Shown piece by piece: positions 14,462 through 64,000 of a stretch of DNA of 64,000 nt. The notes beneath the pieces are model-generated. The model had not been told where the DNA came from. It made no database searches and worked only from the letters and a program-made list of their open reading frames with translations. Origin of the DNA: Planctomycetales bacterium ZRK34 (lineage in GTDB: Bacteria > Planctomycetota > Phycisphaerae > Phycisphaerales > Zrk34); contig CP050848.1 in NCBI GenBank assembly GCA_014873095.1, forward strand, positions 2,170,001-2,234,000, in the 5' to 3' direction. The position numbers were made by a program, and so were the translations under genes. Within the stretch, counting starts at the first letter, position 1. Every line of letters starts with the position of its first letter.

Positions 14462-14486
14462 TCCGATCACCCCATCCGCCCCACCA

Positions 14487-14514: not shown

Positions 14515-14552
14515 CATGCTCCAATCTGCAGATAAATGATCCGCCGTTCACA

Positions 14553-14580: not shown

Positions 14581-14581
14581 A

Positions 14582-14599
14582 TGCCCCATCGGCTCAGCC
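14582..14599. repeat. 18-bp direct repeat, copy 1 (leader of tRNA-Glu)
   Basis: TGCCCCATCGGCTCAGCC occurs here, between the -10 box and the tRNA, and again exactly at 14791-14808, beyond the tRNA. A partial duplication or the scar of an integration event at the tRNA locus would explain it. Confidence 0.85.
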
Positions 14600-14604
14600 G
14601 ACCC

Positions 14605-14677
14605 GCCCCCTTCGTCTAGTGGCCCAGGACACCGCGTTCTCATCGCGGTAACAGGGGTTCGACTCCCCTAGGGGGTA
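14605..14677 (+). tRNA. tRNA-Glu (anticodon CUC)
   Basis: Cloverleaf visible by eye. Acceptor GCCCCCT pairs with AGGGGGT (first pair G-U), the D-arm begins GTCTAGTGG, the anticodon stem CCGCG/CGCGG encloses loop TTCTCAT with anticodon CTC, and the T-arm AGGGG/CCCCT has loop TTCGACT. CCA is not encoded. The similarity to E. coli tRNA-Glu in the D-arm and T-arm is strong. Confidence 0.95.
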
Positions 14678-14952
14678 CTTTCTCATCAGTACCAGGCGGC
14701 AAATCACCGTTTTCAGGGGTAAAATCAACGTTTTCTTCTTCGTCGTGCTGCTTGTTACCGCTTGGTAGCGCCCCATTGCGCCCCATATTTTGCCCCATCG
14801 GCTCAGCCTTCGGGGCCAGCCCTGCCGCTTTATCCATCAGTTCCTCGCTCGCCAACAGATCGTGATTCGGCGCTATACAAGTCACTTTTCTGAATCCGGA
14901 TAAGAGCCAGAAAGTCGCACTCAATTTGGAGCAAAAACGGGGAGAAGCCGAT
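14678..14952. other. Gene-free stretch downstream of tRNA-Glu, possible integrase remnant
   Basis: About 275 bases with more A+T than the neighbours. It contains the second copy of the 18-bp direct repeat (14791-14808) and clustered GCCCCAT words. Reading the minus strand gives an open frame into the tRNA (for example LLASEELMDKAAGLAPKAEPMGQN). That could be a decayed tail of an integrase, but no recombinase motif remains, so I do not call a gene. Confidence 0.4.
14791..14808. repeat. 18-bp direct repeat, copy 2
   Basis: Identical to 14582-14599, 209 bases downstream on the other side of tRNA-Glu. Confidence 0.85.
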
Positions 14953-16479: not shown

Positions 16480-16483
16480 GTGC

Positions 16484-19347: not shown

Positions 19348-19384
19348 CGTGGTCCTTGTCCATGAACAGGAATGACGGGCGGCA

Positions 19385-20230
19385 TCACCACCAGTACGGC
19401 CGGTCGTCGCCGCCGTGGCTGTAGTGGGCGGAAAACGGATTGGGCGCCAACGGGCCGTTGTTCGTGCCCATCTGGTCGCGTGACACCCAGGCCGCCGAGC
19501 CGTCGGCATACACGCGGTTGGAGCCGACGATGGGGTCGGTGAAATCGGAATACGATCCGCCGGTGTATTGCGGGAAATAGCGGTAGTTCGACTCGGCGTG
19601 ATTGGCAAAGCCCCAGCGTTCGTTGCCGGCGTAGAAGCAGGCATCCGCGAGCATGACCCTGTCGGCGCGATTCTCGCTTATACGCAGCCCGGCCGCGGTG
19701 GGTTGATCGTCGTACCACTTGGAGAGGCCGGCCACCAGGCGTGTGTTGAACTTGGGGTCGGCCAGGCCGGGCAGGTACACCAGCGTCACGCCGTAGTCGT
19801 CGATCCGATTGACCCAACCGTCCTGCCAGTATTCATACGGCTCCCAGTCGTTGGGTAAACCGCTGCTGAGTATCGGCGGATCAAACGCCTCGCTGGAAGG
19901 ACACGAGATCATCTCCAGCGTGACGCCGTTGCGGATCAGCGGGTCGACGAGCGTCTGCTTGTTCCACTGGGCCGGGAAGGCGCGGGGGATCACCTTGGAA
20001 TTGATCAGCGGCAGGTGCCCGTAATTGCTGTCGGCATACATGAACGCGCAAAGCGTGATCTGCCGCTGGTTGGAAGCGCAGACCACGCGACGCGCCTGCT
20101 CCCGCGCCTTGTGCAGCGACGGCAACAGCAGCGCGATCAGCAGTGCGATGATCGACACCACCACGAGCAGTTCAATCAGTGTGAACGCTCGGGACCGTGG
20201 CGAATTCAATGGCGCCGGTGCAATCAGCAT
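19385..20230 (-). CDS. Type II pseudopilin-like (prepilin N-terminal, DUF1559-type) protein
   Basis: 281 residues. A short leader ends in SRAF, followed by the prepilin signature [20 protein letters not shown] and a charged helix ([19 protein letters not shown]). The C-terminal part is a globular domain with a [10 protein letters not shown] segment near the end, typical of planctomycete pseudopilins. These are thought to form short surface pseudopili or secretion machinery; function here is not known. GGAG precedes the ATG at 20230. An alternative ATG at 20299 overlaps the preceding PEP-CTERM stop as ATGA and would add 23 residues, hinting at coupled translation. Part of the sigma-led operon. 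Confidence 0.87.
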
Positions 20231-20295
20231 ATGCACTCCAAGTGCTTGATAAAGCGCTCGCTCAGGTTTCCCCGAGCGAGCGCAGCAGGCGGTGA

Positions 20296-21690
20296 TCATT
20301 TTCGCGAGCGGCGCAGGGCGGCAAGCACGCCGGCGAATCCCAGCAGCGAGGCGCTGGCCGGCTCGGGGATGGCGTGCACAAATGTCAATTGAAAGCCGTT
20401 GAGCACGGCTTCGGCATGATCGTTGATGGCCTGCACCTCGAGTAGTTCGATGATGATGTCATCGATGCCGTTGGCGGTGAAGTTGAAAGTGGCCGTGGCG
20501 ATCGAGGTCGGCGCGCTGCCTCCGGTCTGGATCAGATCATCGACGACCAATTGGTCGCTGCCGAGCGCATCGCTCAGCAGGATGTCGATGATGCCGTTGG
20601 CGACCGCCTGGTCGTGATGGAACGTGGTGATCTCGTAGACGCCGGCGTCGAGCCCGCTGAGCGTGAGAAAGAGGCTGTTGTCAGCCGTGTCGGTCAGGCC
20701 GTTGGCCTTGGCCTCATCGCCGAGCAGATCGCTGGCGTCTGCAAACGCGCCGGTGAGCGTTCCGCGATTGCGGAATCCGAGATTGGTGATCGGCCCGCCG
20801 ACATTGGGCGCCGAGAGCGTGACGTCGACGGTTCCGATGGAACTGGTGTACGTGTTGGTCTCGGTGGGGTCGCCGTTGGCGGCGGCGTCTGTAAAGGCGC
20901 GATAGCCGCCGAGCACGTTTTGACCGGTCGTGCCGATGTCGACGAAGAGTGTTTTGGCCAATGCAAAATCGACAGCCGCGTCGAAAAGTTGACCGCCGGC
21001 GGTGGTGAGTTTGGCCGGTCCCTGGTCGAAATCAATCAGTCCGAGCGCAACACGCTTGGCCGGGGCCTGCGTGGAACCGTCAAACAGCAGGTCGCCCTGG
21101 TCGTAGCTGAAAAGGATCGGATCGCCGGCTCCGGTTCCGCTGACACGGGAATCATAAGCGGCGACGGCCGCGTTGCTCGCCGGGGCCGCGAAACCCAGTG
21201 ATGTGTCGTCCATCGTGCCGCCGGACTTCACTGGATCGTTGTAAAAGGTCTGGTTGCCGGTGAGCCCGGCGCCCATGGGGTGGAAATTGTTGCGAACATT
21301 CAGGTCGTCGCGTTCGATGATGTTGGCTGAATTCGTCGCTCCGGTCATGTTCAATCCGTCCCACACGCCGACTTCCAGCGCCAGCACAGGCACGGCGGTG
21401 TTCACGAATGTGGGCTCGACATTGCCGGAGCCGACCGAAGAGGAGATCACGACCAGGTCCATGCCATTGGCGGCGGATGCCGGCGTGTTATGGTCCGTGA
21501 GGGTTACGGTGTGGCCGAGCGCTTCGAGTCGTGTTTTGATCGCATCATCGCCGCCCTGGTTGGTGTCGCCGTCAAGCGTGACCAGCAGGACATTGGCGGC
21601 AGGCGCGCCTGCTACCGCGACCAGCAGAATCGCGCAGGCAGCCAGCAGTTGCAGCATGCGGCGGAACGATGAGCATTGAGTCGACATCAT
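20296..21690 (-). CDS. PEP-CTERM sorting-domain surface protein
   Basis: 464 residues. A signal peptide ([19 protein letters not shown]) is followed by a domain resembling a class I glutamine amidotransferase-like or ThuA-like fold ([29 protein letters not shown]). Next comes a beta-rich region (about 210-430) and a C-terminal PEP-CTERM tail [24 protein letters not shown]. That tail directs processing by an exosortase, which is not encoded in this window. The ATG overlaps the FecR-LamG stop (ATGA). The position between the FecR protein and the pseudopilin is the same as in the locus at 58-64 kb. Its ligand is unknown. Confidence 0.88.
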
Positions 21691-23276
21691 GACTTGTTCT
21701 CCTTCGAAGATTGAACTTGGTTTGTTGTATTGGACTGGGAATCATGGCCGGGCTGGATCAGGGTCTGAATCTGCTGCGGCGAGAGTTCACCGCGATAGAT
21801 CTGCAGATCATCCACTTGGCCCTGGAAATACCCGAATGTTTTCTGATTCAGGCCGGTGACATATGAACCGATGTTCCACGCTGCGGGTTGATTGAAGTTC
21901 AGCATGCCGAAATCTGAGGGAATCGGCGTTTGGCTCATCAACTTTGCATTGACATACACAAGCAATGCGTTCGGCGTACGGATTGCCGCGATGTGATGCC
22001 ACCGCTGATCATTCACGCGAACCGCATCGACTTTCGCATTCACCTCGTGTCCCTCGGCATCACGCAAGTTGAACTCGATCGCTCCGTCATCGACCAGCAA
22101 TTCGATCTTGGGATTCTGGTCGGTGTCTTTCCGATAGAGCAGCGCACCGCGACCGGTCATCGAAGTGCTTACCCACATGGCGAGCGTGAAAGGATCACGG
22201 CCGAGTTGGACTGGCGGCGTGGTCACAATGCTTGCGAACTGATCCCGCCCGTTCAGTTTCAGCGATCGGCCGACCGGTCCCAGTGGCAGTTCACCCACGG
22301 GTCTTGTGCCATGCCACTGCGCGGCATTGCCAGACGGGCTGAGATCTTCCAATTTGCCATCAAGCCAATCGTCCAGTGGCCAGTGCCCCAACAGCTGGAT
22401 CGAATGGTCTTCCGCCGCGATGTCGGGGGATTGGGTTGAGTTCGAAACCGTCACCAGGCCGTCGGCATATTGCCCCACCATGCCGGTGACCAGCTCTTGC
22501 TCGACCAGTCGGCCATCACGATCGTAAGCGGTCATCTGCACGCGCCCTTGATACACCTCAACCCGCGAACGACCCGCCGGATCGACCACGGCCCGAAAGT
22601 GTGTGCCCAGGTCGACAAGCGTCATGCGGGGCAATTCCAGGGTGTACCCGCGGCCGCGCGGCTCGACCAACACCATCGCCTCGCCCATCGACAGCGAAGC
22701 GCGCATCAAATCGTCGAACTGAATCTGCGCCGGGCCCAGCAGCGTCAGTTGCACCCCGGAGTCCAACTGAACAACCGCCTGTCCCGGCCCCAGGCTCAAT
22801 ACCCCGTTTCCAATATCGTCACCGACTTTCACAGAACGCCACGCCTGGCCTTCGCTCCACTGCATGGTGGTTGAAGCCTCGACGACACGCCCCAACTGGT
22901 CGATGTTTGTCTGAGTCTGGTTCAATGGAGCATGAGGCCATGCCAGCCAGACGGTGATAGACAAGACGACCATCGCGGCCGCGGCTGCCCACCGCCGAAT
23001 GCGCGGCAGACGACGGGCAGGCGCCGGCCCCGCTCGGAACAGCGTTTCGATACTCTGATCAAGCAGCATGTTGGGCTTGGCGACCTCTCGCGCCGTCTGC
23101 GTCTGCAGGCAGAGCAACGCAAAAAGCCGCCGCCGCCGCGCATCCTGCTGCAGCGCTCGCCCGAAGTCAGCGACCTGCTCGTCGACCATCAGACCGTCGA
23201 GGTAGCAAAGCGCCTCCAGCACGAACGCTTCGTCATGTAACTGGATCGCGGGAATGGCGGCGGGAAGTTCAGCCAT
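21687..23276 (-). CDS. FecR-like transmembrane sigma regulator with C-terminal LamG domain
   Basis: 529 residues. The cytoplasmic N-terminus (1-92) contains a short helical region like anti-sigma proteins of planctomycetes (YLDGLMVDEQVADFGRAL). One membrane helix is at about 96-113 (WAAAAAMVVLSITVWLAW). A FecR-like domain spans about 150-280 (LTLLGPAQIQFDD, MTLVDLGTHFRAVVD, VEVYQGRVQMTAYDRDGRLV). The C-terminal LamG/concanavalin-like domain covers about 315-500 (LGHWPLDDW, PFTLAMWVSTS, WHHIAAIRTPNALLVYVNAKLM). It overlaps the sigma gene by 8 bases (ATGGCTGA), so the two are stoichiometrically linked. Likely role: sensing an extracellular glycan or surface protein and controlling the sigma factor. 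This is inference. Confidence 0.85.
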   Translation of the reverse strand: MAELPAAIPAIQLHDEAFVLEALCYLDGLMVDEQVADFGRALQQDARRRRLFALLCLQTQTAREVAKPNMLLDQSIETLFRAGPAPARRLPRIRRWAAAAAMVVLSITVWLAWPHAPLNQTQTNIDQLGRVVEASTTMQWSEGQAWRSVKVGDDIGNGVLSLGPGQAVVQLDSGVQLTLLGPAQIQFDDLMRASLSMGEAMVLVEPRGRGYTLELPRMTLVDLGTHFRAVVDPAGRSRVEVYQGRVQMTAYDRDGRLVEQELVTGMVGQYADGLVTVSNSTQSPDIAAEDHSIQLLGHWPLDDWLDGKLEDLSPSGNAAQWHGTRPVGELPLGPVGRSLKLNGRDQFASIVTTPPVQLGRDPFTLAMWVSTSMTGRGALLYRKDTDQNPKIELLVDDGAIEFNLRDAEGHEVNAKVDAVRVNDQRWHHIAAIRTPNALLVYVNAKLMSQTPIPSDFGMLNFNQPAAWNIGSYVTGLNQKTFGYFQGQVDDLQIYRGELSPQQIQTLIQPGHDSQSNTTNQVQSSKENKS

Positions 23277-23796
23277 GTTCAGCCTCCCGCGCCAACCGCT
23301 GGCGAATGCACTGTCCGAGCATGCGGTGGATGCGCGACAGCGTCACATAGACCGTATTCAACTTGCGGCCGGTCCGATTGGCCAGGTTCTGCCCGCTGAT
23401 GCCTTCAGCGTAACGCAGTCGGACCAGTTCAAGCGAGGTCGGCGCCAGTTGGTGAAGGCAGTGACGCAAAGCCGTCTGCATGGGCGTGCCATCAAATTCG
23501 CTCAGCGCTTTCCAGTCGTCTTCAAGCTGGTCGATCACGGCAATGTCGAGCGTCGCCACCTGCCTGGCGCGCTGCTGCAAAGCTTTGAGTGATTGCCGGC
23601 GCGCGGTCTCGCGAAGCCAGCCGCCCAGATGATCCAGATCATGAATCTGTTCCCGTCGCTCATACGCCAAAGCGCAAACTTCCTGAAACACATCCTCGAC
23701 CATGTCATCATTGCGTACGATCGCCAGGATGTACGACATCCATCGCGTCCGTTGTTGGATCAGCGTTGAGAAAAGAATTTTCGCATCGATCGCCAT
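23269..23796 (-). CDS. ECF-type RNA polymerase sigma factor (planctomycete family)
   Basis: 175 residues. Region 2 is at about 5-70 (YILAIVRNDDMVEDVFQEVCALAYERR) and region 4 near 120-165 (SLELVRLRYAEGISGQNLANRTGRKLNTVYVTLSRIHRML). There is no region 3, as expected for ECF factors. The ATG at 23796 begins MAIDAKIL. It is the first gene of a minus-strand unit whose next six genes overlap or follow closely, which suggests autoregulation of the operon. A second, very similar sigma/FecR pair is at the right edge of the window. An inverted repeat about 105 bases upstream (23901-23914) may be part of the control region. Confidence 0.92.
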   Translation of the reverse strand: MAIDAKILFSTLIQQRTRWMSYILAIVRNDDMVEDVFQEVCALAYERREQIHDLDHLGGWLRETARRQSLKALQQRARQVATLDIAVIDQLEDDWKALSEFDGTPMQTALRHCLHQLAPTSLELVRLRYAEGISGQNLANRTGRKLNTVYVTLSRIHRMLGQCIRQRLAREAEHG

Positions 23797-23900
23797 GGGC
23801 CTTCTTTCGGTACACAACCAGATACTCGAAAGGACCCAAATCTGTACATGAGGGATACACTTTTTTGCTTTACACCGCACCAGGCATGGCCACTGGGAGC

Positions 23901-23914
23901 GTAAATCTATTTAC
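23901..23914. promoter_or_regulatory. Inverted repeat upstream of the sigma-led operon
   Basis: GTAAAT-CT-ATTTAC, two perfect 6-base arms, lies 105 bases before the sigma start in an A+T-rich patch of an otherwise GC-rich region. It could be an operator or part of the promoter. Low confidence because a 6-base dyad can occur by chance. Confidence 0.3.
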
Positions 23915-24032
23915 AACAATGGTTAACCGCACTGCCAGGCTCGAAAACCAGTGAATGCCCCGAAGAGCCTTGTGACTGTTCGACGCCCCCTTGGGGTGTT
24001 GGATTCTGTCGTTGACGCGGCCTTTGGCTGCG

Positions 24033-25523: not shown

Positions 25524-25719
25524 GATCAACTGTAGGGGCACACGACGCGGCCGTCGAGATGTAAGACTTGTAATTGCTGTGATTAACACGTATCGCATGC
25601 AGGCTGAATCACGCTGGATCGACCACCGTGTATCCCCGATATATTTTACGGTTAAGCTTTGCTCGCGGTCGTGCAATATCCGATGTCGCCGGACGTTGTG
25701 TTCGGCGGAGGGGCGGTAG

Positions 25720-28167
25720 ATGATCCCTCGCACGATTGACCCGAACCAACCGCCCGCGGGTCTGAACCCGATGATGAATCACACCAGACAAGCTCAAAGC
25801 ATGTTGGGGCTATGGCTGTTGGCCGGCGCATTACTGGCCACAGGCGTGATGTTGCCGCGCGCCAAGGCATCGACCAACGATGCCGCGGCGGTGATGCAGC
25901 GCGGCAAGACGATCTACGAGAAGATGTGCGCCTCATGTCACGGCGACCAGGGCCAGGGCGTCAAATACGAATATGAAGACCCGCTGATCGGCGATCGGTC
26001 GCTCGCCTCGCTGACGCGGAAGATTGATCGGTCGATGCCGGAGGACGAGGAGGATTCGTGCGTCGGTGACGACGCCGCGGCGGTGGCGCGTTACGTGTAC
26101 GACACGTTTTACTCACCGCAGGCGCGGGCGGCGCAACTCGCCAAAATCAAACCCGACCTTCAGCGACTGACCGTGCCGCAGTATCGACGGACCGTGGCGG
26201 ACCTGATCGGCAGTTTCCGCAAAGGCTATGACAAGCCCTACACGGACAAGCGCGGCCTGTCGATGCGCATCAACGGACATCACCCCACCGAGAAAAAAGG
26301 CGATAAGAAAAAGTGGGTCGATCACCGCGAACTCGCCGGCGAAGTGTTCTACGAAATCGCGGACAAGTCGCCTTATGACGACATCGATCGCGGCGACCGC
26401 ATCAGTGTGACATGGGAAGGCTCGGTGCTCGCCGATCGCACGGGTGAATACGAATTCGTGATCCGCTCGCGCAACGGGTTCGACTTCTGGTTCAACGACC
26501 CCAACTGGCGCAACCCACCGCAGGTCGATGGGTCGGTCGTGTCGGGCAACGACGTGCGCGAGGTCAAATACAGCGCGTACCTGATCGCGGGCTGGGCGTA
26601 CCCGGTGCGGTTGAAATGGTCGCTGTCGGAAAAAGAAGCGACGGGGATGATCGAGTTGCAGTGGAAGCCGCCGGGCGGTGTGGCCGAGCGCATTCCGATG
26701 CGGGCGATGATGCCGTATGAGACGCCGAAGGTGGCGGTGGTTTCGACGCCGTTTCCACCGGACGATGCGAGCATGGGCTACGAGCGTGGCACGGCGGTGT
26801 CCCGCGCGTGGCAGGAAGCAACCATCCGCGCCGCCATCGAAGCGGCGAACCTGGTGGTTCGTGATCTCGACGAGCTGGCCGACATCAAGTCGGCGGATGA
26901 TCCGCAGCGCGAAGCGAAAGTTCGCAAGTTCTGCGAGCAGTTCGTCGCCCGCGCCATTCGCCGACCGCTGGACGATGATGCGAAAAAGCGATTCGTCGAA
27001 CACCCCATCAGTGGCGCCCCAGACACCGACGCGGCGGTCAAGCGCGTCGTGTTGATGACGCTGTGCTCGGCGGAATTTCTGTATCCCGAAGCGGGTGTGA
27101 CCCGGCCGGATGATTACGACGTGGCGGCGCGGTTGGCGCTGGCTTTGTGGGACTCGCTGCCGGATGACGAGTTGATCAAGGCTGCCGAACGCGGGCAGCT
27201 ACACGACCCCGAACACATCGCCAAACAGGCTCAGCGCATGCTCGCCGACCGGCGCGCCCGCTCGAAGGTACACGGCTTCTTCGACCACTGGCTCGAACTC
27301 GACCGCGCCAAAAACGTCAGCAAGGACGAAAAGGTTTTCCCGGAATTCGATGCGGCGTTGATGAACGACCTGCGCGTCTCGCTGGAGATGTTCCTCGACG
27401 ATGTGGTCTGGTCCGACGCGTCGGACTATCGCCAGTTGCTGCTGGCGAATTACCTGTACGTCAACGATCGCCTGCGCAAGATGTATGCCCCGCAGGCAAC
27501 CGACGCCGGTGACAAGCACGATGGTGAATTCGTCCGCGTCAATCTCAGCGGCGATCGGCGCAGCGGCGTGATCACACACCCCTATCTGCTGACCGCCTTC
27601 GCCTATCACAACGCCACCTCGCCGATCCACCGCGGCGTCTTTCTGACGCGCAACATCGTCGGCCGTCACCTCAAGCCCCCGCCGAAGGCGATCTCCCTGG
27701 CCGACGCCAAGTTCGATCCTTCGCTGACCATGCGTCAGAAAGTCACCGAGCTGACGCGCGACAGCGCCTGCATGTCGTGCCACGCCACGATCAACCCGCT
27801 CGGGTTCAGCCTCGAAAACTACGACGGGCTCGGCCGGTGGCGCAACGCCGATGCGAACGACAAACCCATCAACGCCGCCAGCGACTTCGCCGGCGACGAT
27901 GGCGACACCGTCCGCTTGGGCAGCGCCCGCGATGTGGCGGAGTTTGCCGTGAACTCGCGCCCGGCCCGGCGCGCGTTTGTCCGACAGATGTTTCACCATG
28001 TGACCAAACAGGACACCAGCGCCTACGGTATAGACACGCTGGATGACTTGGAAGCGTCGTTCGCCGAGTCGGGTTTCAGCATTCGCAAGCTGCTCGCATC
28101 GATCGCCGCTATCGACGCCGCGTACGGCCTGACACCCGCCACGGCAAGCCTTGGAGATACGCCATGA
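25720..28167 (+). CDS. Planctomycete DUF1592/DUF1588/DUF1585 c-type cytochrome with PA14-like domain
   Basis: 815 residues. The ATG at 25720 is backed by a GGAGG site; ATGs at 25771/25774 just before the hydrophobic signal (LWLLAGALLATGVML) are alternatives. A haem c motif CASCH (C70, C73, H74) is followed by a region with a PA14-like segment at about 210-330 (VTWEGSVLADRTGEYEFVIRS, GFDFWFND). Then come DUF1592/1588-type helices (ARLALALWDSLPDDEL, ARSKVHGFFDHWLELD) and a second CMSCH (C684, C687, H688) in the DUF1585-type end. Family members are large periplasmic cytochromes of unknown function always paired with DUF1552 proteins, as here with a 4-base overlap. Confidence 0.92.
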   Translation: MIPRTIDPNQPPAGLNPMMNHTRQAQSMLGLWLLAGALLATGVMLPRAKASTNDAAAVMQRGKTIYEKMCASCHGDQGQGVKYEYEDPLIGDRSLASLTRKIDRSMPEDEEDSCVGDDAAAVARYVYDTFYSPQARAAQLAKIKPDLQRLTVPQYRRTVADLIGSFRKGYDKPYTDKRGLSMRINGHHPTEKKGDKKKWVDHRELAGEVFYEIADKSPYDDIDRGDRISVTWEGSVLADRTGEYEFVIRSRNGFDFWFNDPNWRNPPQVDGSVVSGNDVREVKYSAYLIAGWAYPVRLKWSLSEKEATGMIELQWKPPGGVAERIPMRAMMPYETPKVAVVSTPFPPDDASMGYERGTAVSRAWQEATIRAAIEAANLVVRDLDELADIKSADDPQREAKVRKFCEQFVARAIRRPLDDDAKKRFVEHPISGAPDTDAAVKRVVLMTLCSAEFLYPEAGVTRPDDYDVAARLALALWDSLPDDELIKAAERGQLHDPEHIAKQAQRMLADRRARSKVHGFFDHWLELDRAKNVSKDEKVFPEFDAALMNDLRVSLEMFLDDVVWSDASDYRQLLLANYLYVNDRLRKMYAPQATDAGDKHDGEFVRVNLSGDRRSGVITHPYLLTAFAYHNATSPIHRGVFLTRNIVGRHLKPPPKAISLADAKFDPSLTMRQKVTELTRDSACMSCHATINPLGFSLENYDGLGRWRNADANDKPINAASDFAGDDGDTVRLGSARDVAEFAVNSRPARRAFVRQMFHHVTKQDTSAYGIDTLDDLEASFAESGFSIRKLLASIAAIDAAYGLTPATASLGDTP

Positions 28168-54347: not shown

Positions 54348-55376
54348 TCAGGCCTTGCGCCGACGACGCACGATCATGATCATGCCGACGCCGAGCAGCC
54401 CCATCGTGGACGGCTCGGGCACCGCGGTGATCAGCAGAGTTGGCTTGCCGCCGCCTTTGCCGTTGCCACCACCTCCGCCGCCGCTACCACCCTTGCCGCC
54501 ACCCTTACCGCCGCCGCCGTCGCCGAGGCCGGTGTAGCTGTTGATCCAGTCGATAAACTGCGACACGCGGGTGTAGCCGCCCACATCGCCGTAGTCTGAA
54601 TCCGCAACGCCATCCAGTCGCCCCCAACCGAACGAGGTGATGCCGGCCAGCAGATCGATGCCGTCGACATTGATGAACAGGCCGCCGCCGCTGTCGCCGG
54701 GCGCGGTCATGTATTCCAGATCGAGCGGGGTCGCCGAGCCGAAGTTGTTGTCGGCCGTGGTGTGCGGATTGTCGAAGTCGGTCAGCAGGATGCGGTCGTT
54801 CTTGCCGGGGGTGTTGTACGAGGCATCGATGACGTTGTTGCCGGCGCGCTTGACCAGCGACCCGGACTGCCAGCCGGTCAGGCCGGTGCCGGTGGTGCCG
54901 AAGCCGACGGCCGTGGCAATCTCGCCGACTTCATTCTTGCCGGTGTAAAGCTCCGCCGCGGCGAGGCCCGTCTGCAGGACCAGGTCGTCGGAGAAGTGGA
55001 CCAGACCGATGTCGTAACCCTTGCCGAGGTTGCCATCCCAGTTGGAGTGGGCGAAGTACTGGTCGGAGGCGAAGTTCTGGCCGCCGATTTTGAAAGTCAG
55101 GCTGGTGGTGGTGGATTCGGAGACGTGGCCGGCGGTCAGCACCCAGTTGTTGGCGATCAGCACGCCGGAGGCGGCGAAGCCGTAGGAGCCGCCCGAGTCG
55201 GTGCCCGTACCGATGAACTGCCCGACGCTGGCGTAGGCCGATGAAGCGCCGGCCAAGTCGAGATACAGCTGATCGGAACGGTCATCGCGGATGGTCCCGG
55301 CGAAGGCGCTGCCGGCCGACAAAACGCACAAAGCCATAATTGCCATGCGGATAGAATGAGCTTGAAGGGATTCCAT
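54348..55376 (-). CDS. Trypsin-like serine protease with Gly-rich linker and PEP-CTERM tail
   Basis: 342 residues. Start at 55376 with AAGGAG 9 bases upstream (55382 is an alternative). The signal (MAIMALCVLSAGSAFAG) precedes a chymotrypsin-fold domain with the triad H84 (LTAGH), D122 (YDIGLVHF) and S229 (APGDSGGGLF). A Gly/Lys-rich linker (about 287-314) is followed by VPEPSTMGLLGVGMIMIVRRRRKA, the exosortase tail. The anchoring suggests processing of proteins on the cell surface. The gene has its own candidate promoter (55461-55489), and converges on the cbiX-like gene. Confidence 0.93.
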   Translation of the reverse strand: MESLQAHSIRMAIMALCVLSAGSAFAGTIRDDRSDQLYLDLAGASSAYASVGQFIGTGTDSGGSYGFAASGVLIANNWVLTAGHVSESTTTSLTFKIGGQNFASDQYFAHSNWDGNLGKGYDIGLVHFSDDLVLQTGLAAAELYTGKNEVGEIATAVGFGTTGTGLTGWQSGSLVKRAGNNVIDASYNTPGKNDRILLTDFDNPHTTADNNFGSATPLDLEYMTAPGDSGGGLFINVDGIDLLAGITSFGWGRLDGVADSDYGDVGGYTRVSQFIDWINSYTGLGDGGGGKGGGKGGSGGGGGGNGKGGGKPTLLITAVPEPSTMGLLGVGMIMIVRRRRKA

Positions 55377-55460
55377 ACCCATAGACTCCTTTTTCTCGGA
55401 TGTATGATTGCCTGATCTCTGCCCCGATGCGGTTGCCCACGTTGACGTGCGGACAATCGG

Positions 55461-55489
55461 ATAATACCCCACGCTCGCAGGGTGGGCAA
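55461..55489 (-). promoter_or_regulatory. Candidate promoter TTGCCC-N17-TATTAT for the protease
   Basis: On the minus strand TTGCCC (55484-55489) and TATTAT (55461-55466), 17 bases apart, precede the protease start by 84 bases. The spacer again holds an imperfect dyad (CCCAC...GTGGG). Confidence 0.45.
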
Positions 55490-55514
55490 GAAAATTTTGC
55501 ACACCTGTGTCAAA

Positions 55515-57184: not shown

Positions 57185-57934
57185 TCACACCCAGCGGCGC
57201 TTGAGCGCGGCGAGGGTCAACAGCCCCAAGCCGGCGGGCAGCGCGGCGGGAGTCGGCAGCAGCGCGGTGTTGGACAAGGCGTTGAGGGCGGCGCTGTCCA
57301 GGTCGACGGTGGTGGAGAAAACGAAACGGTCGAGGGAGTAGCCGCTTTCGCGATCGTCGATGTTGAACTCGAGCACCTGCCCGACCTGTCCGGCAGTGAC
57401 GGTGTAGGTGTCGCCGGCGTTGCGCCAGAAGTAGAGCCCTTCGTGGGGGTGGTTGATCGGATCGTTGTCCGGGCCGCCGGTGGAGTCGAGCACGTTGGCG
57501 GCAGTGTTCCAGTCGCTGGGCAGATAGACCGAATCTTCGTTGCCGTAGTTGGTGGTGTTGGAGACGTCTTCGAAGTGGGAGTAGTGGTAATACAGACGGT
57601 AATCACCGGCCTGTGCGAAGGTGATCTTGTAGGTGATGGTGGAGGAATGGTCGGCGTTGGAGACGCGGGTGTCGTCGAGGATGGCGGCTCCGCCGGAGGC
57701 GTTGGTGTCGGACGGCAGGGCCTCGGAGCCGAAGCTGGTGGTGTAGGTCGGCGTGGTGTCGATGATGATAAAGCCCTTGTCGGGGCTGGTGTCGTGTCGG
57801 ACGAGGCTGTCAAAAAGCTCAGCTTCGAAAGCGACATAGTCGTCGCCGCCGCCCTGCTCATAAATCACGCTGGCGGCCGCGGGCATGGCGCAGACCGCCA
57901 CCAGGAGCATCGACAGAATCGTTGAGCGCTTCAT
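57185..57934 (-). CDS. Secreted CBM-like protein with PTPAALPAGL-type C-terminal anchor
   Basis: 249 residues; GGAG 7 bases before the ATG. Signal peptide (ILSMLLVAVCAMPAAAS), then a single beta-sandwich module similar in pattern to CBM6/35 domains: YVAFEAELFDSLV, STITYKITFAQAGDYRLYYHYSHF, YGNEDSVYLPSDW, YSLDRFVFST. The C-terminus LLPTPAALPAGLGLLTLAALKRRWV is a sorting-type tail with hydrophobic helix and basic end but no PEP motif; planctomycetes use this variant. The gene follows a pseudopilin (58132-58851) with a family C repeat between them, so it is near but probably not within the sigma/FecR locus at 58-64 kb. Confidence 0.82.
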   Translation of the reverse strand: MKRSTILSMLLVAVCAMPAAASVIYEQGGGDDYVAFEAELFDSLVRHDTSPDKGFIIIDTTPTYTTSFGSEALPSDTNASGGAAILDDTRVSNADHSSTITYKITFAQAGDYRLYYHYSHFEDVSNTTNYGNEDSVYLPSDWNTAANVLDSTGGPDNDPINHPHEGLYFWRNAGDTYTVTAGQVGQVLEFNIDDRESGYSLDRFVFSTTVDLDSAALNALSNTALLPTPAALPAGLGLLTLAALKRRWV

Positions 57935-58023
57935 TCCTTGTCTCCTTTGCAAACGCACTGGATCGGGGACCTCAGAGAAGGGTCATTGTAACCGGAGAGG
58001 CGTGCGAGCGACATGAAAATTTA

Positions 58024-58126
58024 GAGCATTTATGTCATTCATGGTCGCGTGACAGCCGCGAGCGGAAGCTCGTGGCCCGCGGGCTTCCGCCCGCGGCTAT
58101 GAAAGAAAACGCGGTCAGAAAATTCG
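58024..58126 (-). repeat. Intergenic repeat family C, copy 2
   Basis: Matches 29721-29827 over about 105 bases, with a 30-base identical core (58077-58106) and the same hairpin arms. It separates the pseudopilin gene from the preceding CBM-like gene. It ends near the pseudopilin stop. Confidence 0.85.
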
Positions 58127-58131
58127 CTGGA

Positions 58132-58851
58132 TCACGGGCGACGGGGGTCGGAGCGGACGGCGGTGCGGATGCCGTCCTGCGAGATGAGTTCGGCATGCAT
58201 GTCGCCGAAGAGCATGTTGACGTTCAGCAGATGATGCCAGCGGATGCGGTAGTGCCAGCGGGCGTCGTTGCCGGGGGCGCGGGGCACATCGTACCAGGCG
58301 TTGTTCAGGTCGAGCGTGCCCCAGGTCCAGCCGTTGGGGCAGAGATCGCCGTCGGCGGCGTAGGCATAACTGGCTGGGTCGTACACATCGGAGAGTTTGA
58401 ACACACCGTCGCCGTCTTTGGCGGTTCCGTAGAGCGTGTGCTCGGAGAACATGTAGCTTGAGCCGCGCTTGAAGTCGGGGTGCTTGCCGTAGGCCCACCA
58501 GTTGTAGAGCGTCGGATCGGGGTCGTTGGGACACATGAACACTTCATCGGTTTGCGTGTAAGGATAGAACTGCTGCTGGGGCGGCATGGCTTTGCTGCTC
58601 CAGCCGGCGTTGTTGTTGGAGGGGTTGACCACCTTATCCGGGCTGACGCCGACGCCGTATGGAAACAACTGCTTGTAATCGTAAGCGTAGAACTGCAGGC
58701 AAAGCCCGATCTGTTTGACGTTGGCGCCGCAGGCGACGGACTTGCTGACCTCGCGGGCCTTCTGCAGCGAGGGCAACAGGATGGCGATCAGCAGCGCGAT
58801 GATGCTGACGACGACGAGCAGTTCGATGAGTGTGAAGGCGCGGCGGGACAT
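58132..58851 (-). CDS. Type II pseudopilin-like protein (prepilin N-terminal, DUF1559-type)
   Basis: 239 residues. The leader is only MSRRA before [20 protein letters not shown]; the next helix is QKAREVSKSVACGANVKQIGLCLQFY. The C-terminal part contains NMLFGDMHAEL, similar to the GD-H segment typical of these pseudopilins. As in the operon at 19-20 kb, it comes immediately downstream of a PEP-CTERM protein gene (108-bp gap). The order sigma, FecR, PEP-CTERM, pseudopilin is thus the same in both loci. Function in surface fibre or secretion assembly is inference. Confidence 0.88.
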   Translation of the reverse strand: MSRRAFTLIELLVVVSIIALLIAILLPSLQKAREVSKSVACGANVKQIGLCLQFYAYDYKQLFPYGVGVSPDKVVNPSNNNAGWSSKAMPPQQQFYPYTQTDEVFMCPNDPDPTLYNWWAYGKHPDFKRGSSYMFSEHTLYGTAKDGDGVFKLSDVYDPASYAYAADGDLCPNGWTWGTLDLNNAWYDVPRAPGNDARWHYRIRWHHLLNVNMLFGDMHAELISQDGIRTAVRSDPRRP

Positions 58852-58958
58852 GGCTGGTGTTCCTATCTGATCGGTCCGGCCGGCGGGGCCGGGTGTGTCC
58901 CCCGGAATGTGTGGTGAAAAGCGGCCGCTCGGCTTTCGCCGGACGACCGCGCAGGCGT

Positions 58959-60506
58959 TTATGCGAGGTCGCGGCGACGACGGATCAGACCGAGGCCGGC
59001 CAGGCCGAGCAGCGCGAAGGTCGACGGCTCGGGCACGGACACGGCGGAGGCGAATGACCAGTTCAGCACGTTGTGCTCTTCGCCTTCACCGCCGGTGTTG
59101 GCGACGAACCCGACATACGCCTCGCCGCTGGCGTCGGCGACGTCGGACAGGTCGACCGCCTGGTCGTTGATCAGGAGCAGGCCGTCGAAATACACGTCCA
59201 TGAGCCCGTCGACATACTCGACGCGCACGCTGTGCACGCCGCTGTCGCTGAGGTTGTCGATGTTCAGGGAGGTGGCGTCCAGGTTGACGGTGACCAGGCG
59301 GGTTCCATCTTTGCGGATGGCCAGCAGGGCGGCGCTGGGTTCGCTGTTGCTGAAGCTGTCGAGTTCGATGGCGACGGAGCCGGTGGCGCCGGCGCGTCCG
59401 GGGTTGTACCCGGTCAGGCCGTTGTCCTGAATCATGAAGCTCATGCCGTCGGCGCCGAGGGAGCCGTTAAACCCGTCGGGGCTGATGTTGGGAAACTCGA
59501 AGTCGAACTCGGTGACGAAGCCGTGCTTAACGGACTGTTTTTCCTTGAGCCAGGCGGACCCGCCCTGCGACAGGTCGTTGGAGGTCACCTGGAGGAAGGT
59601 CGAGCCGCTGGTGACCAGGCCCGTGGAGCCGGCGCCGGTGTTGACGAACTCGAACTGCGAAGCGGAGGCGGCGGAGAAGTCCGGGGCGAAGTTGAAGCCT
59701 TTGCCATTGGTGTCGAAGACGGCGTTGACGTTGTCGATGTCGTGGGTGGCGTCGGAGCCACCGGTGCCGGAGCCGAAGGCGATGCGGGCTTCATACGGCA
59801 GAGCGCCGGCGATGACCGCCCTGTTGAATACGGTCACGGGCGCGCCGGGGGTGCCGTAGGCGTCGGGGGTGATCACGAGGGTGACGGCAGTGCCGTTGGT
59901 GGTGTACTCGAAGGTGGCCTGGGCGTGATGCCAGTCGCCGGAGGTGAGGTTGAAGCTCAGCGGACCGGAGACGGCCCGGTCGGGCTGCCCGTTGTAGCCG
60001 ATTTCGACGTGGTTGTTGTTGGTTTCGGTCGGGCCGTAGTTGTTGTTGTAATCGTCGATGCCGATGTTCAGCGATTTGGCAGGCGCGCTGTGCTGGGCGA
60101 AGTTGGCGCCGTCGCCGGTCGTGCCGTAGTTGGCGGTGCTCAGCAGGCTCATGCCCAGGCCGTCGGCGGGGGTGCCGGTGGTGTTGGTGATGCGGAAGTC
60201 GTAGTCGACGGTGATGGTCTGGTACAGGCCGAGTGCCGTGCGATCGAAGGCGACGGTGTTGCGCTCGTTGCCGACCTCGGGGATGAGCTGGAGGTAGTCG
60301 CCGATTTCGGTGTGGGCGGCGTCGTTCATGATGACGGGGGGATTGTCGCCGGCGCTGTTCCACTCGCGGAGGGAGTAAGCGGTGCCGGCGGTGTCGAAGT
60401 CGGCGACGGTCGAGGCGGCCATCGCCGGGGCGGCGACCAGCACGCTGGTCAGCGCGGCGCCGAGCGTGATGTTTCGCAGGTTTTGTCGCATCTCATTCAG
60501 TCTCAT
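58959..60506 (-). CDS. PEP-CTERM surface protein with two lectin-like (concanavalin-fold) domains
   Basis: 515 residues. Signal peptide (ITLGAALTSVLVAAPAMAAST), an N-terminal beta-sandwich (about 30-265, TVDYDFRITNTTGTPADGLGMSLLS) and a second L-type-lectin-like domain (about 270-490: GFVTEFDFEFP, GADGMSFMIQDNG, GSVAIELDSFSNSEPS, HSVRVEYVDGLMDVYFDG, EAYVGFVANTGGEGEEHNVLNWSF). Tail VPEPSTFALLGLAGLGLIRRRRDLA. GGAG precedes the ATG. It is a tandem paralogue of the neighbouring gene (60623-62218), suggesting duplication. It probably binds carbohydrate at the cell surface. Confidence 0.9.
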   Translation of the reverse strand: MRLNEMRQNLRNITLGAALTSVLVAAPAMAASTVADFDTAGTAYSLREWNSAGDNPPVIMNDAAHTEIGDYLQLIPEVGNERNTVAFDRTALGLYQTITVDYDFRITNTTGTPADGLGMSLLSTANYGTTGDGANFAQHSAPAKSLNIGIDDYNNNYGPTETNNNHVEIGYNGQPDRAVSGPLSFNLTSGDWHHAQATFEYTTNGTAVTLVITPDAYGTPGAPVTVFNRAVIAGALPYEARIAFGSGTGGSDATHDIDNVNAVFDTNGKGFNFAPDFSAASASQFEFVNTGAGSTGLVTSGSTFLQVTSNDLSQGGSAWLKEKQSVKHGFVTEFDFEFPNISPDGFNGSLGADGMSFMIQDNGLTGYNPGRAGATGSVAIELDSFSNSEPSAALLAIRKDGTRLVTVNLDATSLNIDNLSDSGVHSVRVEYVDGLMDVYFDGLLLINDQAVDLSDVADASGEAYVGFVANTGGEGEEHNVLNWSFASAVSVPEPSTFALLGLAGLGLIRRRRDLA

Positions 60507-60622
60507 GGTGCATCTCCATTTTCGATGACCGCGAGGCGTCGGCTCGCAGGCATGGGGGGTTTGGTTTTTTCAAAGCGGTCACGCGGCTTTCACCGCGCGA
60601 CCACATGCAGGCGGACCCTGAT

Positions 60623-62218
60623 TCAGGCGATGTCGCGGCGGCGACGGATCAGACCGAGGCCGGCCAGGCCGAGCATCGCGAATGTCGACGGTTCGGGGAC
60701 AGCGGAGACAAAGGCCCAACTCAGCACGTTGTGCTCTTCGTTGGCGCCGCCGGTGCGGGAGACAAACCCGACCCATGACTGACCGCCGGCGTCCATCGCG
60801 CCGATGGCGGCCAGGTCGACGGCGAAACCGTCGATGACTTTGACGTCGTCGAAGTACAGCGTGATTTCACCGTTGAAGTATTCCACGCGGACATCATGGG
60901 GACCGGAGTTCGACAGGTCGTTGATGCTCAGCGAGCTGGTGGCCAGGTCGTAGGTCAGCACATCGGCGCCGCCGGCCCAGAGGGTGATGTGGGCGGAACT
61001 GGGTTCGTTGGCGGCGTCGCCGTTGTCGTAGCTGTCGAATTCGATGGTGAAGGCATTGGCGCCGGGGCCGGTTTCGGTGGTGTTGACGCCGGTGCCGATG
61101 TTCTGGATGACGAAGCCCATGCCGTCGGCGCCGGAGGTGCCGTTGGTGGTGGGCATGTCGAGGGTGAACTCGGTGACGAATCCGTCGCGGACGGACTGCT
61201 TGGTGTTGTACCAGGCGGAGCCGCGCTCGTCGTTGTCGGCATCGGTGAGGTGGATGTAGGTGGCGCCGCTGGTGACCAGACCGGTGGGGGTGGCGTCGCC
61301 GGAGTGGTTGAAGGTGAAGTCGGAGGCGATGGCGGCGGAGAAGTCGGTGACGTAGTTGAAGCCTTTGCCATTGGTGTCGAAGACGGCGTTGACATTGTCG
61401 ATGTCGTGGGTGGCGTCGGAACCGCCGGTGCCGGCGCCGAAGGCGATACGCGCTTCGTAGGGCAGCACACCGGCGATGAGGGCCTTGTCGAAGACGGTGA
61501 CGGGCGCGCCGGGGGAGCCGTAGGCATCGGGGGTGATCACGAGGGTGACGGCGGTGCCGCCGCTGACGTATTCGAAGGTGGCTTCGGCGTGGTGCCAATC
61601 GCCGGAGTAGAGGCTGAAGGCGGTGATGTTGGAGACGGCCAGGGAGGCGGCGCCGTCGTAGCCGACCTCGGCGTGGTTGTTGGACGGATCGAAGTGGGGC
61701 GCGGCGGCGCCGTTGTTGTAATCATCCAGGCCGAGGTTCAGCGAATCGGCGGGCGCACCGAACTGGGCCAGGCTGGCGCCGTCGCCGGATGTGCCATGGT
61801 TGGCGGTGCTCAACAGGCTCATGCCCAGACCGTCGGCGGGGTTGCCGGTGGTGTTGGTGATGCGGAAGTCGTAGCTGACGGTGATCTTCTGGTACAGGCC
61901 GGGATCGGTCAGATCGAAGGCGATGGTGTTGCGCTCGGAGCCGGTCTCGGGAACGAGTTGGAGGTAGTCGTTGATCGCGGCGTGGGCGGCGTCGTTCATG
62001 ATCACGGCATGATCGCCGTCGCCGGTGCTGGACCACTCGCGGGTATTGAACTGCGTGGTCGACGGGCCGGAAGCCGTGCCGGGGAATGAACCGGTGACCG
62101 ACTCGAAGTCAGCGACGGTCGAAGCCATCGCGGGCACCGGGACGACCAGCAGGCCGGCGGACATCAAACCCGTGCATAACAGGTTCATCAGGCGTTGAGG
62201 CATCTCATTCAGAGTCAT
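60623..62218 (-). CDS. PEP-CTERM surface protein with two lectin-like domains (tandem paralogue)
   Basis: 531 residues. Almost the same architecture as 58959-60506: signal (LMSAGLLVVPVPAMAST), N-terminal beta-sandwich (ITVSYDFRITNTTGNPADGLGMSLLS), and L-type-lectin-like domain (GFVTEFTLDMPT, GADGMGFVIQNIG, NAFTIEFDSYDNGD, HDVRVEYFNGEITLYFDDVKV, GQSWVGFVSRTGGANEEHNVLSWAF). Tail VPEPSTFAMLGLAGLGLIRRRRDIA. The ATG lies within the end of the FecR-lectin gene (14-base overlap), so the two are co-translated. Both copies keep the asparagine/aspartate-rich loops typical of lectin metal sites. Confidence 0.9.
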   Translation of the reverse strand: MTLNEMPQRLMNLLCTGLMSAGLLVVPVPAMASTVADFESVTGSFPGTASGPSTTQFNTREWSSTGDGDHAVIMNDAAHAAINDYLQLVPETGSERNTIAFDLTDPGLYQKITVSYDFRITNTTGNPADGLGMSLLSTANHGTSGDGASLAQFGAPADSLNLGLDDYNNGAAAPHFDPSNNHAEVGYDGAASLAVSNITAFSLYSGDWHHAEATFEYVSGGTAVTLVITPDAYGSPGAPVTVFDKALIAGVLPYEARIAFGAGTGGSDATHDIDNVNAVFDTNGKGFNYVTDFSAAIASDFTFNHSGDATPTGLVTSGATYIHLTDADNDERGSAWYNTKQSVRDGFVTEFTLDMPTTNGTSGADGMGFVIQNIGTGVNTTETGPGANAFTIEFDSYDNGDAANEPSSAHITLWAGGADVLTYDLATSSLSINDLSNSGPHDVRVEYFNGEITLYFDDVKVIDGFAVDLAAIGAMDAGGQSWVGFVSRTGGANEEHNVLSWAFVSAVPEPSTFAMLGLAGLGLIRRRRDIA

Positions 62219-63773
62219 GACGTATCTCCGTTCTCAAGTTTCCAACACGTTCTGAGGGGTTAGAGTTTTCAGGGGAATCGGCGTGGTTCGTATCGGGACC
62301 CAGCGCGGCAAACCAGCAGTCGCGCACCAGGTGCAACTCGCTGGACCCACCCGTGCGGGCGCCGAAACCGAGCCACACCGCCGAAAGCGGACCGCCGCTC
62401 GAATCAGTCAGCTTCACCGGCAAATTGCGGACAATCCGCTGACCGTCCAGCGACACGCTGAGTCGGCCGCTGATGCACCACACGCGCACGCGGTGCGATC
62501 CGCTGTCGGTCAGATCACGCAGACCAAACGGCAAAGCCGCCAGATCGATGCGGGCCAGGCGCGGGTTGTTCGGCGTGATCACATCAACAAACGCGGCGCT
62601 CGGGTCGCCGGCCTCGGCGTTGCGATAGCTGTCGAAGGTGATGCCGAACACCTGCGGCGAAGGCGCATCGCGACCCGATGCCCCGTTGCCCGTCGGCGGA
62701 TCAGCAGCGATGAAAAATTTCAGCCAGTCGGCGCCGGTGCCCTGGCCGTCAGCGAATTCAAACTCGAAGGTGCAAACGAAGTCGGATGCACCGGCCGCCA
62801 GCGGCATCGCCCGGCGTGTGACCACCGCGCCGAATTGACTGAACTCGTTGGGGTGCAGCGAGAGCGTGTCGGCGACGAAGTACGGGCCTTCGGTGGCGGC
62901 GGTCATCGCGCCGGCGCCGGCCAGCGGATCAACCTCGCCCCTGATCAGCGGGGTCATCATCTCGAATCGGCCGTCGTGGACCACCATCCCCTCGGCCGCG
63001 CGAAGCCTGCGATGCTGAACGACCCCGCGCGAAGCGTCGGTGTAACGCAGCTCGACTTCGCCTTCGACGACCCGCACAATCGAACACCCATCGCGCAGAT
63101 CGGCAACACCCGCCGGCACCACGTCGAGCCCGAAGCGCGTGCCCAGGTCGACGACCGACAGCGTGCCCTGACCGGCCGGCGCTTCGACGACGAACCCGTG
63201 CGCCGCCTCCGGCACGTAGGCCGACATCGAGCCGGCCGCCAGTCGCCCGCGGTTGGGCCCGACCATCTCGAATTCACACGGGCCGACCAGGTCGACCACA
63301 GCAGTCGAGTTGAACATGATCTGTGCTGAGCCGGCGGTCAGCTTCAGCAGCCCCGCCGAAAGTTCACTGCCCAGCGTCATCGCATCGCTGCCGCCGCCGG
63401 TGGTGGCCTGGTTGTCGAAGACCGCGCCGTCGGTGTTGGTCAGCATGGCCACGATCGGCTTGGCGGAGTCGACATGCGATGTCTGCGGGCCCGGCTGCAG
63501 GATAAACCAGGCTGTCACCGCCAGCGCGATCATCGCGGCGGCGGCGTAGACCCCGACGGCTCGAAGACTCGCCATCGGGCTTGCGGGGATGGACTTGCTC
63601 TGTGTGCGCGGGCATTCAAACACGAGCGCCGCCAGTCGGCAATGCTCGATGAAGGCAGCCCGCGCTGCAGGGTCGTGACGCATCAGGTCGTTGAGCGCGG
63701 CACGATCCTCGGGCTCGCCGCCGTCGAGGTAGCGCGTGATCAGCAGATCGAGCTGGGCAGTCGTGTCAGCCAT
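62205..63773 (-). CDS. FecR-like transmembrane sigma regulator with C-terminal lectin-like domain
   Basis: 522 residues. Short N-terminal cytoplasmic helices (LITRYLDGGEPEDRAALNDLMRHD), one membrane helix at about 72-93 (AVGVYAAAAMIALAVTAWFIL), a FecR-like domain (about 150-270: VDLVGPCEFEMVGPNRGRL, LSVVDLGTRFGLDVVP, VRVVEGEVELRYTD) and a C-terminal lectin-like domain (about 290-500). That domain has VFGITFDSYRNAEAGDPSAA, HRVRVWCISGRLSVSLDGQRI and AVWLGFGARTGGSSELHLVRDCWF. It shares the same pattern as the lectin domains of the two PEP-CTERM proteins downstream. It overlaps the sigma gene as ATGGCTGA, exactly as in the 21-23 kb locus. Confidence 0.87.
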   Translation of the reverse strand: MADTTAQLDLLITRYLDGGEPEDRAALNDLMRHDPAARAAFIEHCRLAALVFECPRTQSKSIPASPMASLRAVGVYAAAAMIALAVTAWFILQPGPQTSHVDSAKPIVAMLTNTDGAVFDNQATTGGGSDAMTLGSELSAGLLKLTAGSAQIMFNSTAVVDLVGPCEFEMVGPNRGRLAAGSMSAYVPEAAHGFVVEAPAGQGTLSVVDLGTRFGLDVVPAGVADLRDGCSIVRVVEGEVELRYTDASRGVVQHRRLRAAEGMVVHDGRFEMMTPLIRGEVDPLAGAGAMTAATEGPYFVADTLSLHPNEFSQFGAVVTRRAMPLAAGASDFVCTFEFEFADGQGTGADWLKFFIAADPPTGNGASGRDAPSPQVFGITFDSYRNAEAGDPSAAFVDVITPNNPRLARIDLAALPFGLRDLTDSGSHRVRVWCISGRLSVSLDGQRIVRNLPVKLTDSSGGPLSAVWLGFGARTGGSSELHLVRDCWFAALGPDTNHADSPENSNPSERVGNLRTEIRHDSE

Positions 63774-64000
63774 CAGCCACCTCCATCCGCCGCCGCACAC
63801 AATCCGCCAGCACCCGATACACCCGCGAAAGCGACACGTACAACGACCCGCGCGGCCGCTTCAGCGATTGGGCCATCTGCTGCCCGCTGAGCCCGTCGGC
63901 ATAACGCATCTCGATCAGCCGCCGCGCCTTGGGGTTCAACTCGCTCAGACACTGCCGCAGGGCGTCGACGCGCGTCGCCTGCCCCGGCTGATCAAACGCC
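63766..64000 (-). CDS. ECF-type sigma factor, C-terminal part (5' end outside window)
   Basis: The open frame enters from the right edge and stops at 63766. The visible 78 residues contain region 4: ELNPKARRLIEMRYADGLSGQQMAQSLKRPRGSLYVSLSRVYRVL. It is clearly similar in pattern to the sigma factor at 23269-23796 (LRYAEGISGQ..., LNTVYVTLSRIHRML). Region 2 is outside the window. It ends in frame with an 8-base overlap into the FecR gene. Confidence 0.87.
   Translation of the reverse strand, partial: AFDQPGQATRVDALRQCLSELNPKARRLIEMRYADGLSGQQMAQSLKRPRGSLYVSLSRVYRVLADCVRRRMEVADG

Follow-up and report, generated by a model that had tools for sequence, protein, structure and literature searches.

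A planctomycete sigma/FecR/PEP-CTERM/pseudopilin module and the homology of anti-sigma tails to neighbouring surface proteins

At the right edge of a 64,000-nucleotide stretch of the genome of Planctomycetales bacterium ZRK34 (contig CP050848.1, positions 2,170,001 to 2,234,000 of the forward strand; hereafter the window), the gene of a FecR-like anti-sigma factor lies between that of an extracytoplasmic function (ECF) sigma factor and those of two PEP-CTERM surface proteins. As the initial annotation had proposed from the sequence, and as profile matches, sequence identity and structure models now bear out, the C-terminus of this FecR protein is an L-type-lectin-like domain of the same kind as that found in both neighbouring PEP-CTERM proteins. 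The arrangement raises the question of whether anti-sigma tails are matched, as a rule, to the surface proteins encoded beside them (here called cargo), and what such a tail would then sense.

Gene order and tail-cargo matching across the genome

The right-edge locus had been taken for the second copy of a module that also occurs further left in the window, a description that falls well short of the genome. A search with the window FecR returned about 95 FecR homologues in the 5.7-Mb genome (G000), accompanied by about equally numerous adjacent sigma genes of the TIGR02989 type; more than 100 TIGR02989-like sigma matches and 37 places matching PF04773 were counted genome-wide. The gene content, with PSCyt/PSD1, SBP_bac_10 and TIGR02989 matches, by itself points to a planctomycete. 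We read 1.33 Mb around the FecR genes (23% of the genome) with gene calls from our own script, in which starts are approximate, and mapped 93 FecR loci; PEP-CTERM-like tails were called by a pattern that marks 28 of 620 genes outside the modules (~4.5%), and PEP-CTERM partners were compared within that sequence. A sigma gene stands directly upstream of FecR at 90 of the 93 loci, the first downstream gene is PEP-CTERM-like at 82, and at about 70 loci one or two PEP-CTERM genes are followed by a pseudopilin gene. The gene order, for which a random outcome had been named beforehand as refuting a modular system, is thus far from random.

The FecR proteins contain a transmembrane-like stretch in 88 of 93 cases, and weak zf-HC2 and DUF4880 matches in the N-termini of two paralogues do no more than suggest sigma inhibition by that part. 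The three FecR proteins that the pattern credited with a PEP-CTERM tail proved false positives on inspection. Sigma and FecR genes overlap by 4 bases at 60 loci and by some 8-base overlap at 18. The initial annotation had laid weight on one identical 8-base overlap, ATGGCTGA; both window loci do share it, and the weight placed on the identity did not stand, since the exact sequence is limited to these two of the 93 loci and therefore carries no special meaning. The conserved feature is the translational coupling, not the overlap sequence. The tails of the 120 module cargo proteins comprise 39 of the classical PEP class and 64 of a PxPAALPAGL...RRR class, plus variants; the genome encodes two exosortases, and two sorting routes for the two tail classes are possible.

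Matching was assessed by comparing the C-terminal region of each FecR protein (~230 aa) with all 120 downstream PEP-CTERM proteins, trimmed of signal peptide and tail, at a threshold of 20 bits. The FecR tail matched a cognate PEP-CTERM protein at 43 of 88 loci, against a mean of 1.4 and a maximum of 7 when FecR proteins were permuted among loci 10,000 times; this permutation keeps domain frequencies and does not model relatedness, a minor concern given that the 43 matched tails fall into 33 families. The same spread over families means that the matching does not come from one expanded family. Counting the first PEP-CTERM gene alone likewise gave 43 matches, non-cognate pairs exceeded the threshold in 0.8% of cases, and reversed queries gave no match at all. 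After removal of the LamG and lectin tails, 32 of 67 loci were matched (0.7 in the permutations), and the LamG and lectin tails by themselves gave 11 of 21 (permuted, 1.6). The expectation of a general modular system, voiced for this DNA on the strength of two loci, is therefore borne out at the scale of the genome.

Other neighbours do not behave in this way: matches were found for 1 of 55 other downstream genes and 1 of 86 upstream genes, and the pseudopilin, considered as an alternative matching partner, was rejected, with none of 77 own pseudopilins matched here and none of 31 in a related genome (G003). The matching is specific to the neighbouring PEP-CTERM cargo. Identities between tail and cargo are mostly 26-62%, and in 16 of the 22 cargo proteins longer than 350 aa the match lies in the half adjoining the PEP-CTERM tail. 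Judged by similarity of sequence, the rule is that a matched tail is homologous to its neighbour, whichever of the 33 families it belongs to, and not that it has the concanavalin A-like (ConA) fold. One further module, F1420535 (G000:C1:1417553-1422073), has no downstream PEP-CTERM gene; the LamG PEP-CTERM genes that match its LamG tail lie immediately upstream, and it is perhaps a rearranged module that keeps matching.

The lectin locus and the first locus of the window

Profile matches confirmed the order that had been proposed for the right edge, all on the minus strand: sigma factor, FecR, two PEP-CTERM proteins and pseudopilin, followed by an extra PEP-CTERM-like gene. The window holds the 3' part of the ECF sigma gene (63766..64000), identified by TIGR02989 and Sigma70_r4_2 matches and by a flanking gene call that carries it beyond the window to about 64287; the whole gene (G000:C1:2233796-2234266) scores 117 bits against TIGR02989. 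Its stop overlaps the FecR start in the 8 bases at 63766..63773. The FecR-like protein (62205..63773; 522 aa, ATG start) comprises a predicted cytoplasmic N-terminus, a single transmembrane segment at about residues 72-92, a FecR-type periplasmic part and the lectin tail (62205..62936; Lectin_L-type E 5.1e-8, under the curated cut-off). Its N-terminal 270 aa are 44% identical to the first paralogue of our paralogue alignment (A1), and the Pfam scan gave no PF04773 match for the protein.

The first PEP-CTERM protein (60623..62218; 531 aa) contains two lectin-like domains, with 54.9 bits for Lectin_legB (PF00139), 26.4 bits for PEP-CTERM and an E-value of 8.5e-7 against ERGIC-53 chains. The second (58959..60506; 515 aa) is its 63% identical paralogue, with 45.4 bits for Lectin_legB and 27.9 for PEP-CTERM. 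Both exceed the PF00139 cut-off, and none of the three lectin proteins reaches the curated cut-off of PF18483; the PEP-CTERM tails score 22.8 and 25.7 bits against TIGR02595, for which the cut-off is 16. The pseudopilin-like protein (58132..58851; 239 aa) carries a prepilin N-terminal methylation motif (PF07963, 26.4 bits, and TIGR02532) and an SBP_bac_10/DUF1559 domain (PF07596, 36.9 bits), all above cut-off. Behind it lies the gene of a third secreted protein (57185..57934; 249 aa), missing from the initial annotation, with a signal peptide and a PEP-CTERM-like tail, PTPAALPAGL...KRR, of the PxPAALPAGL type (PTPAALPAGLGLLTLAALKRR). A trypsin-like protease with a PEP-CTERM tail is encoded near the module (54348-55502, minus strand).

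Against the C-terminal lectin domains of the cargo, the FecR tail shows 33% identity for the second protein (E 1.6e-23) and 32% for the first (E 6.6e-18), and it gave nothing significant against the N-terminal domains of either. Among nine genomes of the family, these two neighbours are the sole detectable relatives of the tail. A comparison of folds had been named beforehand as a check, and it came out in favour of the proposal. AlphaFold2 models of the FecR tail and of the PEP-CTERM C-terminal domain, for which the alignment comprised three sequences and the confidence was moderate (pLDDT 65 and 71, pTM 0.69 and 0.75), match L-type lectins of the PDB (best Foldseek E 3e-7 and 1.4e-9, probability 1.00, TM about 0.5), with plant lectins and ERGIC-53 among the matches of the FecR tail. 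In these models, the FecR tail and the cargo domain share the legume-lectin fold. In ERGIC-53, mannose is bound by Asp121, Asn156 and Gly251-Gly252 (PMC3912170), and equivalents are present in all three lectin domains of the locus (alignment A2), as GAD, as FDSYRN, FDSYDN or LDSFSN, and as TGG. The window lectin tail thus appears to retain a putative calcium-dependent sugar site composed of Asp, Asn and Gly-Gly.

The first locus of the window, also on the minus strand, consists of a sigma gene (23269..23880; TIGR02989, 100.9 bits), a FecR gene with a LamG tail (21687..23276; PF04773, 26.6 bits; PF13385, 67.2 bits), a single PEP-CTERM cargo gene whose product is not ConA-like by Pfam (20296..21690) and a pseudopilin gene (19385..20299; PF07596 and PF07963 above cut-off), with the sigma/FecR overlap at 23269-23276. 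The two window FecR proteins are 28% identical to each other over the aligned part. The initial annotation had drawn support from the LamG tail of this locus as another concanavalin fold, an argument that fails, given that the cargo does not match the FecR tail; of the two window loci, matching is therefore found only at the right-edge one. The first locus is flanked (12677-25733, minus strand) by sulfatase, DUF2961 (GH172-like), TctC/TctB, TctA and BNR genes, in the manner of a glycan-utilisation cluster.

Tail turnover and distribution in other genomes

The N-termini of the FecR proteins are all related. When each protein was paired with the FecR closest to it in this part, the tails were homologous in only 7 of 91 cases, from which it follows that tails have been exchanged. 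At most of the matched loci, the protein in three genomes that resembles the tail most closely is the one encoded beside it. One module is common to two genera (F1978253/FG005_143), with identities of 50-51% between the FecR proteins, 60% between the cargo proteins and 33-48% between FecR and cargo. The C-terminal halves of the two cargo proteins form a clade that excludes both FecR tails, and the tree leaves the sister status of the tails open; given the cargo clade, the pairing appears to predate the split of the genera and to have been kept since.

Genomes of the same family carry between 0 and about 98 FecR genes. Several relatives have few FecR genes, and the pattern suggests that the expansion in the window's genome is very recent or very unstable. 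A genome of a second genus, with 98 FecR proteins (G005), keeps the gene order and shows the matching in weaker form, 8 of 41 loci sampled from its better-scoring FecR proteins being matched, against 0.26 in permutations. G003, with 53 FecR proteins, has sigma-FecR-pseudopilin modules without PEP-CTERM genes; lack of an exosortase as the reason for this was rejected, as the genome encodes two exosortases. Tandem sigma-FecR-pseudopilin arrays were also seen there (L137-L156), and a single contig holds some nine FecR genes in a stretch of 40 kb.

At the level of the class, FecR relatives were found in 26 of 150 genomes, where sigma-FecR adjacency is the rule and the cargo varies. In one of them (G027, L191-L198), the genes behind the sigma-FecR pairs encode giant secreted proteins, some 1200-2000 aa in length, and the single scanned example contains galactose-oxidase/kelch, fn3, PASTA and F5/8-C domains; in another (G070, L199-L206), LamG proteins with dockerin-like ends, or pseudopilins, lie downstream of sigma-FecR. 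Dockerin-like repeats such as DLNGDCQVNLDDFAVIAGNWL were noted in the latter by eye. The contigs of named genomes that were scanned with the window FecR contained no relatives. The core is a sigma-FecR pair with a secreted protein, of which the form with matched PEP-CTERM cargo looks like a lineage-specific elaboration.

What the anti-sigma tails may sense

The closest functional parallel is the biomass-sensing SigI/RsgI system of Clostridium thermocellum, in which the outer tail of RsgI is a carbohydrate-binding module (CBM) or a glycoside hydrolase (GH) domain, the GH10 tail of RsgI6 being 57% identical to Xyn10D (PMC4711584). As in that system, sigma and transmembrane anti-sigma genes are adjacent, several parallel pairs occur in one genome (PMC4711584, PMC12203970), and the outer tail resembles extracellular proteins, which here are the cargo of the operon itself, presumably regulated by the sigma factor. 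Unlike SigI-type factors, which have no region 4, the sigma factor here is of the TIGR02989 ECF type with region 4; the anti-sigma factor has a FecR-type periplasmic part in a Gram-negative envelope in place of the autocleaving domain of RsgI, and about 93 pairs stand against 8-9, with cargo in the same operon bearing PEP-CTERM tails and accompanied by a pseudopilin. By this analogy, the system would work like SigI/RsgI and is not a member of it. FecI/FecR/FecA signalling, including FoxR/FoxA and PupR/PupB, likewise features a FecR-type anti-sigma factor whose C-terminal subdomain is a fold homologue of a domain of its surface partner (PMC11637429, PMC9249621), whereas here the tail is not an STN domain: it is large (~230 aa), varies from locus to locus and is an L-type lectin in the window, where the Pfam scan of the operon proteins found no TonB-dependent transducer.

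The cargo conforms to the PEP-CTERM/exosortase system in its signal peptide, C-terminal PEP motif, transmembrane segment and basic cluster, and in the presence of exosortases in the genome (PMC1569441). In that description, Haft et al. (2006) linked proteobacterial PEP-CTERM genes to sigma-54-type sites; here, in contrast, every cargo is accompanied by an ECF sigma gene and a FecR gene of its own. We found no earlier description of the tail-cargo pattern in the literature searched, which is no proof of novelty. In Bacteroidetes, polysaccharide utilisation loci likewise run in parallel by the dozen, each for a glycan, and many of them include an ECF sigma/FecR pair; unlike them, the present modules contain no SusC/SusD pair, and their surface proteins are PEP-CTERM proteins and a pseudopilin.

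From the coupling, gene order, homology and fold described above, we infer a function: the region is one of about 93 sigma/FecR/PEP-CTERM/pseudopilin modules, each probably, in our estimate with middling confidence, a self-contained unit for sensing and capturing a glycan. The glycan of a module would enter the periplasm and be bound by the FecR tail, whereupon the FecR protein would be inactivated and the sigma factor released, probably through proteolysis in successive steps like that known from FecR and RsgI. The latter would then transcribe its own operon, providing more surface binding protein and pseudopilin fibre, by which the sugar would be captured; the tail would copy the cargo domain because a single glycan has to be recognised by the two of them. 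At the right-edge locus, this would be a glycan bound by an L-type lectin through a calcium-dependent site. Glycan sensing is preferred on several grounds, to which the genome-wide matching, the mannose-site equivalents kept in the window tail and the RsgI parallel can be added. The tails recognised by Pfam are mostly binding modules (LamG, L-type lectin, F5/8-C, CBM4_9, CBM96, NPCBM and HpiC1-like, with an NHL propeller in one); the first downstream genes that are neither PEP-CTERM nor pilin, scanned at 10 loci, include a sulfatase, GH88, a melibiase, an alpha-L-fucosidase and BNR proteins; and dextran is known to be bound by planctomycetes on pili-like fibres and to build up in their periplasm (PMC5394234), where the FecR tail would meet it.

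Several observations weigh against such a function. The outcome of the matching is bimodal, about half of the modules being unmatched at the level of sequence (45 of 88, the first window locus included), and profile searches raised the matched loci by two only, to 45 of 88. In the first window locus, the cargo has no ConA domain by Pfam and the FecR tail scores -1.3 bits against it, and no cognate match above 20 bits was found in the sampled distant genomes (G027 and G070). Many tails, including a cluster of eight, have no Pfam match, so that "glycan-binding" is an extrapolation for them, and binding-site residues were inspected for the lectin family alone. A search of the sequence upstream of 90 sigma genes gave no credible promoter motif common to them, which leaves autoregulation unsupported here.

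Among other explanations, it is possible, if distinctly less probable than glycan sensing, that, while a PEP-CTERM protein is being exported, the tail of its cognate FecR pairs with the counterpart domain in it, such that free or stalled periplasmic cargo protects or destabilises the anti-sigma factor and the tail reports the state of export or assembly instead of a sugar. F5/8-C, CBM4_9, CBM96 and LamG domains typically bind ligands rather than self-associate, half of the loci have no matching partner, and the lectin tail keeps its sugar-site residues, all of which speak against homotypic pairing. The specificity of the matching for neighbouring cargo and its location in the tail-proximal half for 16 of the 22 long cargo proteins (in the window locus, the C-terminal lectin domain only) fit it well, and the FecR family offers a precedent, since FoxR has a C-terminal STN-like subdomain that is structurally homologous to the signalling domain of its surface partner FoxA, and their mutual contact protects FoxR from proteolysis (PMC11637429). 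Glycan sensing and homotypic sensing are inseparable by sequence. In its widest form, which we hold as tentatively as the pairing itself, the family would form a class of anti-sigma factors not described before, with over 90 copies side by side in one genome, many of which have a sensor domain captured from the surface protein that they control, and with specificity rewritten at each new cargo; the signal may be the cargo itself, which would provide every surface protein with a private secretion-feedback loop.

More doubtful still is a by-product of evolution, in which FecR gains its tail by fusion with, or duplication of, a neighbouring cargo domain and the tail serves as a structural cap with no matched sensing role. 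Local capture predicts that a matched tail should mostly have its nearest relative in the neighbouring cargo, as is the case, and the fast turnover of tails (homologous in 7 of 91 nearest pairs) fits as well; this explanation is nevertheless the less likely because at least one pair persists across two genera, whose split it appears to predate, and because the shared domain is that of the PEP-CTERM protein and never of the equally near pseudopilin (0 of 77), to which the sugar-site residues of the lectin tail can be added. Finally, that these are ordinary sigma/FecR-LamG operons in which common ConA-like domains create the matching as an artefact is very improbable. LamG is abundant, with 104 matches in the genome, and the first locus is unmatched, as such an artefact would have it; yet the permutation with domain frequencies kept yields 1.4 against 43, and for this genome the artefact is refuted by the test without LamG and lectin tails (32 of 67 against 0.7).

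On the preferred reading of glycan sensing, as on that of homotypic pairing, the homologies suggest that each switch may share with its surface protein the sugar, or the partner, that it recognises. To our knowledge, nothing hints at the input of each pair in most bacteria with many sigma/anti-sigma pairs. A sensor tail that can be read against its neighbour would make the input of dozens of anti-sigma factors predictable from sequence and accessible to tests case by case, and it suggests how one genome holds about 90 parallel surface programmes and how evolution may redirect a sensor, through the uptake of a domain of the protein under its control. Should the ligands be glycans, the modules would correspond to polysaccharide utilisation loci and might be connected with the dextran-binding pili-like fibres of planctomycetes.

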